A DNA stretch of 34,652 nucleotides from positions 1 to 34,652 of IMG/VR virus record IMGVR_UViG_3300032665_000117. One strand, 5' to 3'. A model generated the notes under the pieces. That model did no database searches. It was not told the origin of the DNA and worked only from the letters and a program-made list of their open reading frames with translations. The position numbers were made by a program, and so were the translations under genes. Shown here piece by piece: positions 3,997 to 24,188 of the stretch. The stretch's first letter is position 1. Each line of letters opens with the position of its first letter. This DNA is from a virus.

Positions 3997-6344
3997 TTAG
4001 ACCCCCAAGTTGCTTAGGCGAGTAGAAAGCAAGTTTCTAATCGCGGTGTCTTGAGTGATCGCTTGCGCTTGAGCGAATTTAACCGCCAAAGTCGCGTTTT
4101 GAGCGAGCATTCCTGAATAATATGGATCACGATAAATCAGCTGCATCGAATAGCCATCTTGATTTATGTGTGTTACGGCTTGTTTACCAACAGTTGTGTT
4201 GTAATAAACGTCTTGTCCGTTTGCAGAAGCACCACGTGCAACAGCAGCCTCCGAGCTGGTAAGGATACGGACGTTAAATACCGATCCATACTCAGATGGA
4301 AGAGCTGAGCTATTGTTAGGATAGTTCCATTGGTTCAAGAAGCCAGATCCAGTAAGACCATCAAAGTCAGACTGAAGCTCAGTTGATGACAGCATAAAAT
4401 ATGCTGATCGCACTGGGCCTGTTCCGAATCGATCCATACCTTCGATACCACTCATAAATTTATAAGCGTTATTTGTATCGAGTGTTGTGGCAACTAAGCT
4501 GAAGTCAGAGACTCCGAGGTTAGTTGGGTTATCACCATTGGATCCGCCGCCAGCATTCAATGTTGATGCAGCAGAAACGATGTAGTCGCGCAAAATTAAA
4601 TCTTCTGCTTGACGCCAACTTGTTACTCACCTTTCGGTGGGATTGGTCATTTCTGCCAACCTCTGCAATTTCATTTATTGTTGCAGATCGGACTATCGCA
4701 TACGCTATTGTTAGCGTCCTCTGGATTTAGTCTCTCAGGCTGCATTTAAGCTTGCCCCTTGTCACCCCATCGGGCTTCCAAGTCGATTACCAAAGGTTTA
4801 ATGGCCACTTGTCAAGATGGCCACGGCGAGACGCTCGGATACCCAAGCTAACACCAATTATCTCTCGCCTAAGAGGGCGTGTTATTCAGCATTACTATTT
4901 CTCTATAGCAGTTCTCACGATATTCTTTTTCTTTTTCAGGAATTTTAGCCAATCCATTCGTAGGATTGTAATTTCTACAAAAGTTTAATATCTTTATCGC
5001 TTGAATTGCTTTGATCTGAAGATAAGGAATACATCTCTTCAAAAACTCTATGGTATCGGATCTTGATTGAATCGAAAATCTAAATGCAGCCCCTCTTAAA
5101 GCTGTATTAGCTTTCACAATCGATAATCCTCCATATTCACAGTTTGAAAGGATATGCTTTATTGATCGTTCGCTAACCATAGTCAATAAGATTTTCGGTC
5201 TAAACTTAATTAAATCCGATTTTTGCCTGTTTTGACCTGCTTTACGAACCGATCTTTCTATAGAAAATGATCCATCTGTGTCCATAATTCCAGCAACATA
5301 AGCCCAAAAATAAGGACAATTGCTGTTTACTCTAAGGACATTATCTAACGTGTAAGACTCGATTTTTCTATTTAAATTCAAGTCTTTGCATAATTGATAA
5401 TAGTTCTTTCCTTCTAATGGATTTGTCAAAAATTCCATAAGTTGGTCAGCGGAATCCTTCTTCAAAACTAGATGGTCGCGAACCTTATTTAAAAGATTCA
5501 AACATCCTTCTTTCCCTTGAAGCATCCATTTCCAGATGATACGATCATTTTCTTTTTTTGGCTTATCGCATGCAATAGTGCCTCCAAACAAATTATTTAA
5601 ATACACAGATGCCTGTTTCATTGAGTTGTGAAATTGGATTAAGGGAAGCATTTTCTTTGATCCTTTCCTGATTCCTATCATTCCATCTCCATCAATTAAT
5701 CCTGCTATATAAGCCATCATTTCCTTTTCTTCCGGATCTTTCATATAGTCCTTTTTTCGGCTATATTATAGACCCACCATCATTATGCTGCAAGTATAGA
5801 ACCCTCTTGATCCTGAAGGATCACCTGTTATTGATGATACACCCAGTTCCAAAAAAAGCCATTTGTGCCATCGATTATATCTCTCTGGGGCACTTGTGCC
5901 GGAGGCATACTGTTACTTCTTTAGACCCCTTGCAGCCGCAAGGCGGGAATCCCTCTTCGGAGACTCCTCTCATAGTTACCTATGAGATCAGACTATCGCA
6001 TCCCATTTCTGGGCCTCTGAATTTAGTCGTTCAGGCTGCACACTTTCGTTGCTTGCCCCTTGTTGTCCTGCTTAAGCAGCCAGGAGATCCAAGTCAATTA
6101 TCAAAGGTTTTACATCGACACACCGGAGTTCTTTATCGATCCCACTATTACCCAATTGGATAGTAGGCGGTTGCAAACTTCTTGGACGCATAAAGCGGCA
6201 AGTAGTACCACCATTTGAAGGCATAGAAACCTTATCGCAAACGGTGATGTAGTTCATAGTTGGGGTCGGCACATATAACATTGCAGGCGCAAGCGATTGC
6301 AAGATAAGCGGTCCGAGATTCCCCGTATTAGTAATCATTGACAT
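3997..6344 (-). CDS. Major capsid protein (N4-gp56-like), split into four exons
   Basis: The exons on the minus strand are 6344-6135, 5905-5801, 4854-4817 and 4618-3997, giving about 324 residues when joined. Exon 1 begins MSMITNTGNLGPLI and ends LGNSGID. Exon 2 begins PPAQVPQRDIID and ends QVILQDQEG. Exon 3 is VLAWVSERLAVA plus two bases. Exon 4 starts WRQAEDL and runs through RDYIVSAAST to TRLSNLGV. Together these reconstruct the conserved capsid helix and core. Boundaries follow the reading frame and intron P1 pairing; the exon 1/2 acceptor (after 5906) is chosen because it keeps frame. Exon 2 has an extra base near 5868-5869 and a missing base near 5829-5830, leaving an in-frame TAA, so it may be an assembly error or a damaged gene. 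The start has only a weak ribosome binding site. Confidence 0.8.
4619..4816 (-). ncRNA. Group I intron C, ORF-less (198 nt)
   Basis: P1 is GGCCAU (exon end, 4822-4817) paired with GUGGCC (4808-4803), with a U-G wobble at the 5' splice site. P10 is CAA in the guide paired with UUG at the start of exon 4. P7 is GACUA (4732-4728) with UAGUC (4695-4691). P8 is a hairpin with an ACGCUA/UAGCGU stem. The P9 hairpin is CCACC-GAAA-GGUG. The intron ends in G (4619). The core closely matches intron A (CCUUUG-UAAU-GACUUGG, AGGGGCAAGC, GCGAUAGUC). Splicing at these sites keeps the capsid reading frame. Confidence 0.85.
4869..5744 (-). CDS. LAGLIDADG homing endonuclease (two-motif monomer)
   Basis: A 291-residue protein with two LAGLIDADG motifs: IAGLIDGDG near residues 13-21 and VAGIMDTDG near residues 150-158. 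Each is followed by a beta-rich DNA-binding half, so it is expected to act as a monomer on an asymmetric site. Both motifs keep the acidic metal-binding residue. The start has a good ribosome binding site (AAGGA, 4 nt before ATG) and a sigma70-like promoter just upstream, so it can be expressed independently of the capsid transcript. Its last codons (NNTPS and the TAG stop) overlap the guide-like sequence of insertion B. It is not an intein, because stop codons separate it from the capsid frame. Confidence 0.93.
   Translation of the reverse strand: MKDPEEKEMMAYIAGLIDGDGMIGIRKGSKKMLPLIQFHNSMKQASVYLNNLFGGTIACDKPKKENDRIIWKWMLQGKEGCLNLLNKVRDHLVLKKDSADQLMEFLTNPLEGKNYYQLCKDLNLNRKIESYTLDNVLRVNSNCPYFWAYVAGIMDTDGSFSIERSVRKAGQNRQKSDLIKFRPKILLTMVSERSIKHILSNCEYGGLSIVKANTALRGAAFRFSIQSRSDTIEFLKRCIPYLQIKAIQAIKILNFCRNYNPTNGLAKIPEKEKEYRENCYREIVMLNNTPS
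4871..4884 (-). other. Internal-guide-like sequence of insertion B
   Basis: The minus-strand 14-mer TAACACGCCCTCTT is complementary to the ligated junction of exons 2 and 3, except for G opposite the splice-site U, which makes the usual group I U-G pair. It overlaps the final codons and stop of the LAGLIDADG gene. A 7-bp stem, GGCGAGA (4869-4863) with UCUCGCC (4831-4825), starts just after it and encloses the acceptor site. Confidence 0.75.
5765..5793 (-). promoter_or_regulatory. Candidate sigma70 promoter of the LAGLIDADG gene
   Basis: A -35 TTGCAG (5793-5788), a 17-nt spacer and a perfect -10 TATAAT (5770-5765) lie about 20 nt upstream of the endonuclease ATG, inside the insertion. This would uncouple endonuclease expression from the late capsid transcript. 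Confidence 0.5.
5906..6134 (-). ncRNA. Group I intron A, ORF-less (229 nt)
   Basis: P1 is AUCGAU at the end of exon 1 (6140-6135) paired with GUCGAU (6119-6114), with a U-G wobble at the splice site. P7 is GACUA (6028-6024) with UAGUC (5995-5991). P8 is CCCA-GAAA-UGGG. Core strings are nearly identical to intron C. Peripheral hairpins follow toward the 3' end. The acceptor is placed after G5906 because only that site keeps the capsid frame (GID then PPAQ). An alternative after AACAG would match the end of intron C better but shifts frame. Confidence 0.85.
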
Positions 6345-9119: not shown

Positions 9120-9575
9120 CTAAATTTTGCGAATGAATCGATTTCGCATGAGTTGAACTTTCATGTTTGTATCAGTCCTTTTTTTCTTTCTCAAGTTATC
9201 ATCAGCCTTCAAATATTGAAGGTTTTCAAGACAATGTTTTCCTCCATCATTCAATGGAATAACATGATCAACATGGCATCCACAGGGTTTATTAAGATAA
9301 AAAGATCTTATCTTACGAAATTCTTCTTTTGGTACATCTCTAAGTCCATCAATCCTATAGAATCCATGAAAAGCCGATCGCATTTTTTGTTGTTTTAAGC
9401 CCTTTTCACTTTTAAAGTATTTCCTTCTATTTTCTTTATTGCTTGGAAGATGATTTCTTCGATAATTCTTTTGCTTGGCAGTAATATTTTCTTGGATGAT
9501 TTTTTCTTGAACTTGTGGTGCCATAAATTTCTTTGCATGAGATATAAATTCTTTTAGTTCGTTATAATCCGGCAT
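9120..9575 (-). CDS. Free-standing HNH endonuclease
   Basis: A 151-residue basic protein. The C-terminal third has the HNH core CGCHVDHVIPLNDGGKH followed by LENLQYLKADDNLRKKK, with the conserved His pair and the Asn of the ENLQ motif. The N-terminus is helical and Lys-rich. The upstream 130 nt (9576-9705) are very AT-rich and hold no gene. It is probably a mobile endonuclease; no intron was seen around it. Confidence 0.88.
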   Translation of the reverse strand: MPDYNELKEFISHAKKFMAPQVQEKIIQENITAKQKNYRRNHLPSNKENRRKYFKSEKGLKQQKMRSAFHGFYRIDGLRDVPKEEFRKIRSFYLNKPCGCHVDHVIPLNDGGKHCLENLQYLKADDNLRKKKRTDTNMKVQLMRNRFIRKI

Positions 9576-19767: not shown

Positions 19768-21057
19768 ATGAATAATTTACTAGCTCCCAAGCAGATGGAG
19801 TTTATACTCGACTCCACCAAAAAGATCAATATAGCTCATGGCTCTGTTCGTTGTGGCAAGACGGTTGGAACCCTTTTCCGTTTTATGCAAGCCGTCGGCA
19901 ATTGCCCTGATTCCCAGATCTGGATGATAGGTCATTCCTCTTCTACCATCTATCATAATGCGATACGTCTACTAATGGAAGCCAATACTCCTAATAATCC
20001 TTTGTCGGTCTTTCAACCATTCCTAACGTGGCAACCTGGTAAGGCCGAGCTTAAGTTCCGAAATAAGACCATATCGACAGTAGGCGCCAAAGATGAAGGC
20101 GCAATTGGAGCAATCCAAGGTAAGACATTTTCGCTTGCCTATTGCGATGAGATCACGCTATATCCCGAATCTATCATCGATATGATTCATACTCGACTTT
20201 CTAATCCCCATTCCCAGCTATTTTGCTCCTGCAACCCGTCTCATCCAGATCATAAAATAAAGAAATGGATCGATAAAGCCCGAGCCGGTGATCCTCTGTA
20301 TTACGAACTCGCCTTTACTCTAGATGATAATCCTTATCTCGATGATGAATACAAACGGATGGTTAAAGAAAGCTTATCTGGTCTCTTTTACAAAAGAAAC
20401 TATCTGGGTCTTTGGTGTCTAGCACAGGGAGCTATTTTTGATTTCTTCGATAGAAATATATACGTAGTAAAAAAACCACCAAGAGCCGCAGAATATTGGA
20501 TCGCAGGCATTGACTATGGGATTACTAATAACTTTGCATGTGTCCTAATAGGTATTAATACAGGAATGCATACCCAGACTGGTATTTGTCGATGGGTAGA
20601 AAAGGAATATGTTTGGAACTCAGCTGAAAAGGGACGACAAAAAACTAACAGTGAGCTTGCCGATGATTTGCAATCATTTCTTGAGCCCTATGCATTGCGC
20701 GGTGTATACATTGACCCTAGCGCTGCTTCTTTTAAAGTGGAGCTTCGAAGAAGGGGAATAACTACAATCGATGCAGATAATGATGTTCTAAGTGGTATCA
20801 CCTTTATGACATCGGAAATGCAAAAGGGTAATCTCTTCGTGTGTGAGGAGTGTCCTACTACTATCAAAGAAATAGAATCCTACGTCTGGGATCATAAGAA
20901 AGCTGAGAAAGGAGAAGATGCTCCGATGAAGGTTAATGACCATAATATGGATGCGTTAAGATATGCTATTTTTACTCATAAAGTAACTAAGTACCAGCCC
21001 TATAAGCATAATCCCAACCAATACGCACAGAATAGATTTTCAAGAGGGAATTTTTAA
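19768..21057 (+). CDS. terL: Terminase large subunit
   Basis: A 429-residue packaging motor. The ATPase domain has Walker A GSVRCGKT (residues 25-32), Walker B LAYCDE (123-128) and a coupling motif CSCNPSHP near 152. The nuclease domain has the acidic residues of an RNase H fold: GIDYG near 250, YIDPSA near 315 and NDHNMDALRYA near 395. Length and motifs fit the PBSX/terminase_6 group. The ribosome binding site is weak. The stop overlaps the next start (TAATG). The partner small subunit may be the minus-strand gene 6996-7442. Confidence 0.95.
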   Translation: MNNLLAPKQMEFILDSTKKINIAHGSVRCGKTVGTLFRFMQAVGNCPDSQIWMIGHSSSTIYHNAIRLLMEANTPNNPLSVFQPFLTWQPGKAELKFRNKTISTVGAKDEGAIGAIQGKTFSLAYCDEITLYPESIIDMIHTRLSNPHSQLFCSCNPSHPDHKIKKWIDKARAGDPLYYELAFTLDDNPYLDDEYKRMVKESLSGLFYKRNYLGLWCLAQGAIFDFFDRNIYVVKKPPRAAEYWIAGIDYGITNNFACVLIGINTGMHTQTGICRWVEKEYVWNSAEKGRQKTNSELADDLQSFLEPYALRGVYIDPSAASFKVELRRRGITTIDADNDVLSGITFMTSEMQKGNLFVCEECPTTIKEIESYVWDHKKAEKGEDAPMKVNDHNMDALRYAIFTHKVTKYQPYKHNPNQYAQNRFSRGNF

Positions 21058-21314
21058 TGACAGAAGATGAAGTAAAAGAAATAGCCGCCAAAATATGCCA
21101 TGAAAAAATGAAAAATTTATATGAACATATAAAAGAAAAAATCTCATCAGAAATCAGATTTGAAATACGTTCAGGAAAAATACGGTTTGAAAATTTTTTA
21201 TCAGATGATGAAAGCTCTATTTTAAAAAAAAGAATAGACAGTGAATGTATCAGCTATATGAACGCTGTTCTGAGAGAGGCCTTTACAAAATTTATGAAAT
21301 CAGTGAATAGTTAA
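21057..21314 (+). CDS. Hypothetical helical protein downstream of terminase
   Basis: An 85-residue charged helical protein (MTEDEVKEIAAKICHEKMKN), coupled to terL by a one-base overlap. It lies between terminase and portal. Function unknown. Confidence 0.6.
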   Translation: MTEDEVKEIAAKICHEKMKNLYEHIKEKISSEIRFEIRSGKIRFENFLSDDESSILKKRIDSECISYMNAVLREAFTKFMKSVNS

Positions 21315-21320
21315 ATAACT

Positions 21321-21391
21321 AGTAGCGTAGTTTAACAAAAGAGCAAAATACACGAAAGTGTGATGAAGGTTCAAATCCTTCCGCGAACGTC
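21321..21391 (+). tRNA. tRNA-like remnant without an anticodon loop
   Basis: A perfect T-arm (GAAGG-TTCAAAT-CCTTC, 21365-21381) and a plausible D-arm (GTTT...GAGC) preceded by the canonical T8-A9 are present. The acceptor pairs only in its inner GCG/CGC. The anticodon arm is replaced by ACAC-GAAA-GTGT, a tetraloop hairpin, so no anticodon exists. It is probably a decayed tRNA or a tRNA-like RNA, not a working tRNA. It lies just upstream of an HNH gene. Confidence 0.4.
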
Positions 21392-21448
21392 ATAAATTTT
21401 CACAGTCGAATTTGAAAAATAATCATAGCTTCTCTATACTCTTCGTCT

Positions 21449-21721
21449 ATGGGAAAATATCAATATCATTTCGGAAGAAAATTCTTTCAACGCAAAAACG
21501 GCTATTGGCAATGTACCAAGGACAGTACTCTGTATGCCCATCGCTGGATTTGGATCAATCACTTCGGTGAAATTCCCGATGGCATGGACATCCATCATCG
21601 GGATAATGATCCAAGCAATAACGACATATCCAATCTACTAATGCTTACTGCATCACAACATGTAAAATTTCACTGGCGGGTGAAAAAATTCGAACCTAAT
21701 CAGCTTCTCTTAGCAATATGA
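21449..21721 (+). CDS. HNH homing endonuclease (small, phage type)
   Basis: A 90-residue protein with AHRWIWINHFGEIPDGMDIH followed by HRDNDPSNNDISNLLMLT, the HNH_3-type core with the His-His pair and Asn. It is inserted between terminase and portal, and its last 67 bp are duplicated 282 bp downstream. No strong ribosome binding site is visible. Confidence 0.9.
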   Translation: MGKYQYHFGRKFFQRKNGYWQCTKDSTLYAHRWIWINHFGEIPDGMDIHHRDNDPSNNDISNLLMLTASQHVKFHWRVKKFEPNQLLLAI

Positions 21722-21906
21722 GTATTTGCATTATTTGTGGTGCCGAAACGGGGCAAAAAAGGGTCGCCTGTTTCAAAATAGGAGAGGCTTTTTTCTTAGA
21801 CACTTTTCTCCATGAAAAGAGTCGTCTATTTGCCTGTTTCAAAATAGGAGAGGCTTTTTTCTTAGACACTTTTCTCCATGAAAAGAGTCGTCTATTTGCC
21901 TGTTAA
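21718..21906 (+). CDS. Repeat-containing small ORF with CxxC
   Basis: A 62-residue frame coupled to the HNH gene by ATGA. It begins MSICIICGAETGQKR, a plausible zinc-knuckle start, then consists of two identical 22-residue repeats (CFKIGEAFFLDTFLHEKSRL). The repeat part is probably DNA-level amplification of a hairpin-forming element, so the ORF may not be functional. Confidence 0.35.
   Translation: MSICIICGAETGQKRVACFKIGEAFFLDTFLHEKSRLFACFKIGEAFFLDTFLHEKSRLFAC
21766..21904 (+). repeat. 66-bp perfect tandem repeat, two copies plus a partial
   Basis: Copies at 21766-21831 and 21832-21897 are identical; seven bases of a third follow. Each unit contains an inverted repeat (GAC-CTTTTC with GAAAAG-GTC). 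Perfect identity suggests recent slippage or recombination. Confidence 0.92.
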
Positions 21907-22184
21907 ATTCGGACGTCTTATTTAAATCATATCAATACAACATGTAAAATTTCACTGGCGAGTGAAAAAATTCGAACCTAATCAGCTTCTCTTAGCAATA
22001 TGAAAGGAGGATCTTCTTAAAAAACTAATGTTGCGTTAATAAAATCTTTAATGTTAATTTGGGCTCGATCATTTGACTCGCATCGGAGGTCTTTACGAGC
22101 TTCTATTATCCACCTTGGAATAATGATATTGAGCCCAATCAAGGTAACGTCAGACAGTGGCTTGACAATCTCTATAGCAAGTTC

Positions 22185-24188
22185 ATGCCCATTGAGCAAT
22201 CGCGTTGGAACCAAAGTAATATCGACACCCTCTTTTATGCCGGTGCCCAAGACTTTGTAAATAGATATTTTGGATTTCAGGCTAATAGCAACGCTAGTAG
22301 CTATTATTTCAACATCTGCCAACAGCCTGTCAACATGATTACCGGCTACGAGCGTCAGCATCGTAAGGGATTCATGTGTCAGGCTATAGAGGGAGCAGAT
22401 AACCTTACCACAGATCAATATACAAAACTTTTGACACATACCGCCAATATCGGTGGAATTCACGAGCAAAAATCGAAGGCAAAAGAGCTTGCTGCCATTT
22501 CTGGCATGGTTCTGTTGCAACCTTATTTAGATTTCACTGGAGCCGATCAAGCCCAAGGGGAACTTAAAGCTAAAATCTGGGAATACAATAGCTTTCTAGT
22601 TGATCCCTACTTCCGCAATCCAGATATGAGTGATGCTCAATTCATCTGGTGTCAAGAATATATTTCTAAAAAAGTGGCTGAGGAGAGATTTCCAGAGCAA
22701 AAAAATAACATAATGCCTATGTCCGGCACTCCCCAACGTTATGGCTCGTTCTACTTTCTTCCTGAAAACTACAACATGGCTCGCAATGACCTGATGGTCT
22801 TGAGTTATGTCTGGTACAAATGGAAAAAGAAAAAGAAACGACTCTATAGCCGTAAACGGAATCAATTCTTTGATTTTGCCGGCGGAGATGGGCAAATGGA
22901 CGCTCTCCTAGCCAATCTAGAGGATGTCGAAGAAGTGACGGTTGAAGTGCCATCATGGAAACTGGCGGTCGTTTTAAACGATCAATTGATGTTTCAGGGA
23001 GACAATCCGCTAGGATTTGATTCGTGCCCGATGATTAGTTATTTTTGGAATTACGAACCTCACATAAATTACTACGATCTGCGCTGCCGTGGACTTATCC
23101 GCACTATGCGGTCGCCCCAGTACCTTTTCAACTACAAAGTCATCCAAAACAACGACATTGCGGCCGCGACAATTAACGCCGGTTGGAAGCGTAAAGTCGG
23201 AGCTGTTGCCAATGAAGATAATCTCAAGAAATCAGGCCAAGGCTGGGATGTCATCGTAAACGATGGCTATGAGATGACAGATGTAGAAAAGATCATCCCA
23301 TCTGCTGTTCCTGAGTCCGATCTGGCACTCGCCCAGCAAATGGAAGATTTGATGTACAAGACCTCAGGTATCAATCTAGAAAATTGGTCGGGTCAACAAG
23401 ATAAACAAACTTCAAGCTTAACTGTACTCCTTAAGCAAGCTGCCAATCTGATGGTATTCCAGAAATATTTTGACCAATGGGATTATTCGGACATGCTTCT
23501 TGGGGATAAAATGCTTCAAATAATGATTAACAATTGGAGTGCTGAAAAAGTCGAATTGATGATTGGTGAAGAACCGAGTCCTCTTTTCTACTCCAAGATC
23601 TTTGCTAAATATAAAGTCATTATGGAAGAGAGTGATCTCACTCCAACTCAACAGAATTTGCAAGCCCAACAGATGATGGATATGAACGAAAGATTCGGAA
23701 GAGAGGTCTTCCCTCCTTCGATGATCATACCAAAACTCAACATCACAGGAAAAGCCGATGCAATCAAGTTTCTACAGTCACAAGAACAGCAGACAGCTGC
23801 CGTACAGCAGCATAGCCAAAATCTTGAACATGCCTTCAATGAGGCTCGTCTTAAAGAGATGTATAGCAAAACAGCAGCCCAAATCGCGACAGCACGTGAA
23901 AGACATGGCAGGGCTGAGGCTGATATTGGGCTCTTTGAAGAAAGACTCAGCGAAATCACACGTAATCGCGCGCTCGCTACTAAAGATAAGATGGAAGCTC
24001 TTGAAAAACTCGTGGATGTCATTGCTAAATATGGCGAAATTGAAACGGCTCTTAAAATGCAAGATATTGAGAATTTCGACAGAAATCAGATCATGGATGA
24101 GAACGAAGAAAAAGTTGACGCTAAGCGATCGAGTTTAGCCAACGATTTCATGACTGGGATTTTGGGCGGACAGGCTCAAGGACAATGA
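22185..24188 (+). CDS. Portal protein, P22-like; true N-terminus upstream and disrupted
   Basis: 667 residues from the first in-frame ATG. Typical features are YYFNICQQPVNMITGYERQH near residue 40, a long alpha/beta wing and stem region, and a C-terminal coiled, Gln/Ala-rich helix (about 550-640). The frame continues upstream without a start to 22077 and encodes FTSFYYPPWNNDIEPNQGNV, which looks like genuine portal sequence. The likely start region (ATG at 22051) lies in another frame, so one base seems to be missing between about 22081 and 22110. No ribosome binding site precedes 22185. The portal forms the DNA gate to which terminase docks. Confidence 0.88.
   Translation: MPIEQSRWNQSNIDTLFYAGAQDFVNRYFGFQANSNASSYYFNICQQPVNMITGYERQHRKGFMCQAIEGADNLTTDQYTKLLTHTANIGGIHEQKSKAKELAAISGMVLLQPYLDFTGADQAQGELKAKIWEYNSFLVDPYFRNPDMSDAQFIWCQEYISKKVAEERFPEQKNNIMPMSGTPQRYGSFYFLPENYNMARNDLMVLSYVWYKWKKKKKRLYSRKRNQFFDFAGGDGQMDALLANLEDVEEVTVEVPSWKLAVVLNDQLMFQGDNPLGFDSCPMISYFWNYEPHINYYDLRCRGLIRTMRSPQYLFNYKVIQNNDIAAATINAGWKRKVGAVANEDNLKKSGQGWDVIVNDGYEMTDVEKIIPSAVPESDLALAQQMEDLMYKTSGINLENWSGQQDKQTSSLTVLLKQAANLMVFQKYFDQWDYSDMLLGDKMLQIMINNWSAEKVELMIGEEPSPLFYSKIFAKYKVIMEESDLTPTQQNLQAQQMMDMNERFGREVFPPSMIIPKLNITGKADAIKFLQSQEQQTAAVQQHSQNLEHAFNEARLKEMYSKTAAQIATARERHGRAEADIGLFEERLSEITRNRALATKDKMEALEKLVDVIAKYGEIETALKMQDIENFDRNQIMDENEEKVDAKRSSLANDFMTGILGGQAQGQ

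Follow-up and report, generated by a model that had tools for sequence, protein, structure and literature searches.

Group I introns, coreless inserts and micro-inserts in the major capsid gene of a phage clade: a proposed intron nest with shared cores

The capsid gene of the window and its interruptions

The virus record IMGVR_UViG_3300032665_000117 of IMG/VR, a fragment of 34,652 bases, was analysed over its whole length (the window). On its minus strand it carries a major capsid gene in four exons, which are interrupted by two group I introns and by a longer insert without a group I core (element 2), and which contain a single extra nucleotide (nt) in exon 2 (Table 1). A purpose-written spliced-alignment program placed inserts of 229, 946, and 201 nt in the gene, in line with a first-pass annotation that had proposed one capsid gene with three insertions. 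Relatives with an uninterrupted gene encode the same protein in one open frame, which confirms that the exons join in the proposed manner; the four segments and the 38-nt exon 3 of the earlier proposal thus stand, with one correction: the start of exon 4 is 4615, the proposed 4618 being three bases early. An intact relative (L015) matched the same major head protein family as exon 4, PHROG 1357, with an E value of 1e-15, while a Pfam capsid match was obtained only below its cut-off. An intact capsid gene elsewhere in the genome had been named as evidence against the proposal; no second copy occurs in the record, which is a fragment.

Table 1. Capsid locus of the window. The E values of covariance model R1 are flattered, as its training set includes the same introns.
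Feature	Position	Strand	Remarks
Capsid exon 1	6135..6344	-	codons 1-69, ends ATCGAT; agrees with intact relatives
Intron 1	5906..6134	-	group I intron without open reading frame, 229 nt; R1 E 4.8e-36; boundaries after U and after G
Intron 1 guide	6114..6123	-	P10 strand, wobble G, P1 strand; pairs with ATCGAT at codon 69, also at codon 80
Intron 1 tail, unspliced, in frame	6072..6134	-	...LIIDLDLLAA-stop
Capsid exon 2	5801..5905	-	105 nt; holds out-of-frame island
Micro-insert	5869..5869	-	1 nt, directly after second ATCGAT, codon 80
One-base deficit	5829..5830	-	near codon 94, versus relatives
Element 2	4855..5800	-	coreless, codon 104, 946 nt, LAGLIDADG gene inside; no R1 match; same class as the 30-93 nt inserts at codon 104
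Element 2 tail, unspliced, in frame	5783..5800	-	SILAA-stop
LAGLIDADG homing endonuclease reading frame	4869..5744	-	291 amino acids, within element 2; Pfam PF00961 E 1.3e-8
Element 2 guide	4871..4884	-	pairs with GAGGGT (5' exon end, U.G wobble) and GTGTTA (3' exon start)
Element 2 anchor strand	4863..4869	-	GGCGAGA
Capsid exon 3	4817..4854	-	38 nt
Anchor partner in exon 3	4825..4831	-	TCTCGCC; ends 8 nt before 5' splice site of intron 3
Intron 3	4616..4816	-	group I intron without open reading frame, 201 nt, partner of element 2; R1 E 3.6e-40
Intron 3 guide	4802..4808	-	wobble G, P1 strand
Capsid exon 4	3997..4615	-	PHROG 1357 major head protein E 2e-10

The extra base of exon 2 at 5869 and a deficit of one base near 5830/5829 leave 14 codons out of frame, and this island contains an in-frame stop. 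Both changes are identical in the records L002 and L003 and recur in the diverged relatives L021, L044, and L229, and a random assembly error was therefore rejected. The extra nucleotide and the in-frame tails described below were overlooked in the first-pass annotation; its count of four exons agrees with the alignment but would be too low if the single nucleotide is itself excised.

Group I cores were searched with a covariance model, R1, built from 33 introns of relatives, each of about 170-210 nt. The model matched introns 1 and 3 of the window with E values that are flattered because the training set includes L002, which carries the same introns. At both introns a U ends the 5' exon and forms a U.G wobble with an internal guide, and the intron ends in G. 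Introns 1 and 3 are thus group I introns, as had been proposed, and are predicted to splice themselves in a GTP-dependent reaction. Rfam gave no match to them, even at E≤1; annotation based on Rfam would miss these group I introns despite E values below 1e-35 with the custom model. No match to R1, nor any to Rfam, was obtained in the 946 nt of element 2. An assignment of element 2 as a group I intron bearing an open reading frame (ORF) was rejected, as it has no core and its ORF is flanked by no more than 56 nt upstream and 14 nt downstream; an intein was likewise rejected, as a stop 15 nt past the 5' junction precludes in-frame continuity with both exons. The element had been described as a LAGLIDADG element and does encode such a protein, but the absence of a core and the tie to the group I intron downstream had been missed. 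By eye, the sequence preceding its ORF (5800-5745) contains TTGCAG and, after 17 nt, TATAAT, a possible promoter of its own.

Coreless inserts, their guides and their anchors

Relatives were gathered by means of exon 4, insert patterns, the portal protein, and the C-terminal part of the capsid. Of 283 aligned loci, 61 were dropped (45 without a capsid gene, 16 truncated or with a low score), and the remaining 222 were reduced to 123 unique genes by exact match over 300 nt. Seven loci of relatives (L284-L290) occur in genome bins of mixed taxa, including Bacteroidales, Chlamydiia, Simkania, and Patescibacteria, two of the bins being named Chlamydiota. Inserts were present in 64 of the 123 unique genes, amounting to 165 inserts at 35 sites with up to six per gene, while 59 genes had none. 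Loci fetched by insert-specific patterns bias these frequencies. The portal-based sample is free of that bias (80 loci, 41 without a capsid gene and 5 more truncated), and here inserts occurred in 17 of 31 unique complete genes and coreless inserts in 9 of 31. The aligner required inserts of at least 24 nt and otherwise allowed only shifts of 1 nt, so that inserts of 5-23 nt could escape. Among the 123 unique genes, the stretch of codons 60-125, 20% of the gene, holds 18 of the 35 sites (P 5e-5). Sequence around the sites was also more conserved than average (0.965 compared to 0.938, P 0.002). The clustering in conserved sequence claimed for the window thus holds across the clade and fits the suggestion that target conservation favours a hot spot.

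Two classes of larger inserts were distinguished, 116 long introns and 49 coreless inserts. R1 matches overlapped 115 of the 116 long inserts, the 33 training introns matching by construction, and none of the 49 coreless ones; the sole long insert without a match lies at codon 144 of L282. At E≤1e-3 all 124 matches in 64 loci (698,579 bases), training introns included, fell inside capsid inserts. As the scoring of the aligner slightly favours boundaries after U and after G, boundaries were counted from placements yielding an identical spliced product; by this measure such boundaries could be placed in all 49 coreless and in 113 of 116 long inserts. The coreless class comprises 40 inserts of 29-93 nt at codons 88 (21 genes), 91 (7), and 104 (12), and inserts of 946-987 nt in nine genes, all at codon 104, among them the window's copy with its LAGLIDADG gene. 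By eye, the 93-nt insert at codon 104 of L229 resembles a deletion derivative of the LAGLIDADG-bearing element, with an apparent ORF end kept before the guide.

All 49 coreless inserts share a guide in which a G faces the last U of the exon and leads into a strand that base-pairs with the end of the 5' exon; in 48 of them a P10 strand, which pairs with the start of the 3' exon, precedes this G. By its predicted pairing, the guide combines the equivalents of P1 and P10 in group I introns. Two free third codon positions of the exon, at sites 88 and 104, covary with the guide, and the pairs were of the Watson-Crick type in 42 of 42 cases. At position +3 all four Watson-Crick pairs occurred at site 88 (T-A 14, A-T 3, C-G 2, and G-C 2), and G-C (11), A-T (9), and C-G (1) at site 104. 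Inserts paired better through their own guides than through swapped ones at all three coreless sites. Coreless inserts lack the core that defines group I introns and are, on these sequence criteria, not filed in that class, though they keep its substrate rules.

The 15-28 nt that follow the coreless guide pair with an exon stretch whose end lies about 8 nt upstream of the next group I intron's 5' splice site. We refer to this pairing as the anchor. At site 104 its sequence differs with the position of the neighbouring intron: GGCGAGA/TCTCGCC (as in the window) or GGCTAGA/TCTAGCC with a neighbour at codon 116, GCATAGCTA/TAGCTATGC with one at 120, and TTTGGCGCA/TGCGCCAAG with one at 122. When every coreless insert was scored against all anchor positions, 38 of the 49 scored best at that of the long intron actually following them (9.4 expected by chance), as did 20 of the 21 at site 104, across partners at 116, 120, and 122. 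At site 91, inserts showed no more pairing than shuffled sequences with the 40 nt at the start of their exon; their anchor lies further on. Every coreless insert has a long intron downstream (49/49); the same holds for 25 of the 35 long introns between codons 60 and 104. Similarly, a long intron at codons 116-122 was present in all 21 genes with a site-104 insert but in only 12 of 102 genes without one (P 1.4e-15).

Micro-inserts at codon 80 and in-frame Ala-Ala tails

In all nine phages with an intron at codon 69, a second ATCGAT at codon 80 is followed by an extra G, TG, AG, TTAG, or TAAG, so that these micro-inserts of 1, 2, or 4 nt always follow U and end in G. Within the 123-gene set they occurred in 7 of 7 genes with the codon-69 intron and in none of 116 without it (P 1.4e-11); beyond that set, the truncated L109 and L291 also combine both. 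A pattern search allowing 1-26 nt at codon 80 returned lengths of 1, 2, and 4 only and one new phage, L291. In each of four genes tested, the guide of the codon-69 intron itself was the only stretch fitting site 80 with P1 of at least 6 and P10 of 4 pairs. Trans-excision splicing, a reaction of engineered ribozymes, requires a terminal G in the excised piece, and the codon-80 micro-inserts match its substrate in following U, in ending in G, and in having flanks paired to the guide of the ribozyme.

The one-base deficit near codon 94 is present in all four phages with a 1-nt insert (the window/L002, L021, L044, and L229) and absent from those with 2 or 4 nt. Together, extra base and deficit keep the net frame in the DNA, while the stretch between them is shifted and holds the stop. 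Predicted folds of exon 2 from three genes place the codon-94 site in a hairpin loop, but were not clearly better than those of shuffled sequences (z of -0.32, -0.50, and -1.78). Exon 2 is 92-99% identical among the 1-nt-insert phages, compared to 76-96% for their codon-69 introns. As other codons of these genes differ by many synonymous changes, exon 2 may be constrained beyond its protein or may have been exchanged more recently.

If an insert is not removed, translation from the upstream exon continues into it. Read in this frame, 95 of the 165 inserts ended in Ala-Ala-stop, encoded by 22 codon combinations; when both remaining frames were read, such an ending occurred in 1 of 330 cases. 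Leu preceded Ala-Ala in 50 of the 95 tails, which include EQYALAA, NEYALLAAA, and DYAYRLAA. The distribution was uneven among classes: the tail was present in 43 of 49 coreless inserts but in only 6 of 49 introns with a coreless partner, and among other introns in 46 of 52 after codon 36 (P 1.7e-15 against the partner introns) and in 0 of 15 at or before codon 36. The window follows this pattern, with tails in intron 1 (LLAA) and element 2 (SILAA) and none in the partner intron 3. It seems that the tag is kept where the truncated capsid is long enough to do harm, and the coreless insert appears to carry it on behalf of its partner intron. Like an ssrA tag, the tails have Ala-Ala at their C-terminus, often as Leu-Ala-Ala, and some are close to ENYALAA of E. 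coli; ssrA tags are added by transfer-messenger RNA (tmRNA), however, whereas the phage tails are intron-encoded and would be made by translating unspliced mRNA. According to PMC7652416, the Ala-Ala end of the ssrA tag is the key signal for ClpXP, and GFP-YALAA is degraded but GFP-LAA is not; the shortest tails may accordingly depend on the upstream protein. The in-frame position of the C-terminal Ala-Ala suggests that the tails may act as an ssrA-like degron and lead to degradation by a ClpXP-like protease.

Elsewhere in the window, HNH or endonuclease-like ORFs were noted at 21449-21721, 944-1546, and 9120-9575, one of them immediately upstream of the portal gene. The R1 search gave no convincing core at any of the three, so introns at these positions, if any, would be of another kind. 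The capsid gene (3997-6344) lies on the strand opposite to the terminase and portal genes (19768-24188). In several relatives a portal-like match occurs a few kb upstream of the capsid gene on the same strand, a difference that may reflect rearrangement or assembly.

A proposed division of labour among introns

From the observed anatomy, covariation, associations, and frame statistics, we infer splicing, an acting core, and a ClpXP-like destruction of unspliced products. We consider it probable that the capsid transcript contains an RNA-level nest of introns of three sizes, in which coreless and micro-inserts are cut by neighbouring group I cores and unspliced products receive an ssrA-like tag. 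Full group I introns would be excised by their own core. The coreless inserts would be satellite introns that keep the U at the 5' boundary, a guide of P1 (with its U.G wobble) and P10, the terminal G, and the anchor upstream of the next intron; the anchor would hold the satellite beside the intron whose core cuts it, and most likely the downstream group I core catalyses both excisions. The micro-introns of 1-4 nt at codon 80 would be excised by the codon-69 intron, its own guide being used twice. In the window, intron 1 would then serve itself and the 1-nt insert at 5869, and intron 3 itself and element 2. A transcript left unspliced would be translated up to an in-frame Ala-Ala-stop and give a truncated capsid with an ssrA-like degradation tag, a role that the coreless insert would take over from its partner intron. 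We lean only slightly towards a broader claim, namely that the clade has a natural two-tier splicing system with local group I machines for introns that have shed their core, down to 1 nt, with self-destruct tags, and with an intron addiction device. If this is true, the 1-nt insert makes the capsid gene need the intron that removes it, and loss of that intron would be lethal.

Several observations weigh against this proposal. The coreless insert of L177 has no P10 pairing. In 11 of the 49 coreless inserts the actual partner was not the best-scoring anchor; site 88 accounts for nine of them, with neighbours at 98, 101, 120, or 144, and the others belong to L237 and L110. Strong pairing near their own 3' splice site gives the nine site-88 inserts their best score at the position for 96, but the two with a neighbour at 144 do pair at the 144 anchor (GAACC/GGTTC and GATCC/GGATC). 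Distinct combinations of exon end and guide numbered only 8, 5, and 5 at the three sites, fewer than the inserts, so that the sequences are not independent. Excision of 5869 alone leaves the gene of the window out of full frame, as the codon-94 deficit stays; no guide for the codon-94 site was consistent in the four genes. Finally, we found no precedent in the open-access literature for a coreless insert that bears its own guide and is naturally provided with a core.

Other explanations account for parts of the data. A decaying capsid gene in the window, with a broken exon 2 island to which the patterns of the relatives do not apply, would be in line with one base extra, one missing, and an in-frame stop within 14 codons. 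However, three diverged relatives show the same pattern, codons that differ between any two of the four phages do so predominantly by synonymous changes (118-153 codons per pair, compared to 23-36 with nonsynonymous ones), and the shifted frame of the island retains the family motif exactly, which makes decay quite improbable. The capsid might also be made as separate polypeptides from a split gene, since potential restart codons, ATG or TTG, directly abut the 3' exon in frame in element 2 and in many of the site-104 inserts. Three of the 21 site-104 inserts end in AAG or TAG instead (L195, L229, and L235), and guides and anchors are left unaccounted for; we find this explanation scarcely credible.

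The bypass cassette of T4 gene 60 resembles the coreless inserts in being a short insert with an early stop and a link to a homing endonuclease. By analogy, ribosomes could hop over short inserts that arrived as homing-endonuclease cassettes, and short length, early in-frame stops, an essential gene, and one kind of insert with a homing endonuclease agree with such translational bypassing. In T4 gene 60, however, ribosomes take off and land at matching codons. Inserts at sites 88 and 104 directly follow GGT, and those inspected end in the triplets ATG, TTG, TAG, AAG, AGG, ACG, and GCG, none of them a glycine codon, so that take-off and landing would be unmatched. Inserts of about 950 nt also far exceed 50 nt, and neither the covariation of guides with both exon ends nor anchors tracking the position of the downstream intron is in accord with bypassing, which we regard as very unlikely. 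The guides themselves resemble a splint across the exon junction, and with no core in the coreless inserts they could direct splicing by a protein nuclease and ligase, or by a new small ribozyme formed of insert and exons, to which group I introns are merely correlated. Against this speak the group I rules that the inserts obey (U at the 5' boundary, U.G wobble, terminal G), the group I intron downstream of 49 of 49 coreless inserts with an anchor tracking its position, and the restriction of micro-inserts to genes with an intron whose guide fits. We therefore judge such a mechanism unlikely and favour excision by neighbouring group I cores.

To our knowledge, group I introns served by the core of another are limited to engineered examples. 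Trans-excision splicing ribozymes from Pneumocystis and other group I introns remove short segments, down to one nucleotide, from another RNA via P1, P10, and P9.0; with such engineered ribozymes, excision of single nucleotides has been achieved both in vitro and in E. coli, and removal of 100-nt introns by engineered group I ribozymes in E. coli (PMC6155759). In contrast to these laboratory designs acting in trans, the phage inserts are natural, reside in an essential gene, and have their partners on the same transcript. Spliceozymes, derived from the Tetrahymena ribozyme for 100-nt introns, likewise have a group I core serve coreless introns (PMC4094466, PMC6155759); they are engineered and carry the guides on the ribozyme, whereas a phage coreless insert bears its own guide and partner anchor. 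The group III introns of Euglena chloroplasts are akin to the coreless inserts in their size of about 90-120 nt, the lack of a catalytic domain, and presumed trans-acting factors, but are derived from group II and, in the accessible part of PMC4424553, have no partner identified for each intron, unlike the phage inserts. A capsid gene interruption like that of the window is known from mycobacteriophage LittleE, with an efficiently spliced intron and a LAGLIDADG-like ORF; the accessible part of PMC3706429, which also mentions a capsid-gene group I intron of lactococcal phage Tuc2009, describes one capsid intron and no coreless or micro-inserts, unlike the phage clade studied here. Open-access literature searches on trans-excision splicing, phage capsid introns, introns with ssrA-like tags, coreless group I introns, group III introns, and bypassing yielded engineered ribozymes, group III introns, and single capsid introns; among the papers listed, nothing natural corresponded to the coreless inserts or to the intron-encoded tags.

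How introns might have lost their catalytic part and come to rely on a shared machine is a long-standing question on the origin of the spliceosome. Here, dozens of natural cases occur in one gene of one phage clade, and covariation names each partner, which opens the idea to tests with simple mutants. If true, the capsid gene would provide a living model for the onset of a spliceosome-like division of labour. Natural introns of 1 nt, if they exist, would mislead gene finding, as the genes that hold them seem to contain frameshifts. The Ala-Ala tags suggest that these phages shield capsid assembly from truncated subunits by an intron-coded protease signal, which is new as far as we know.

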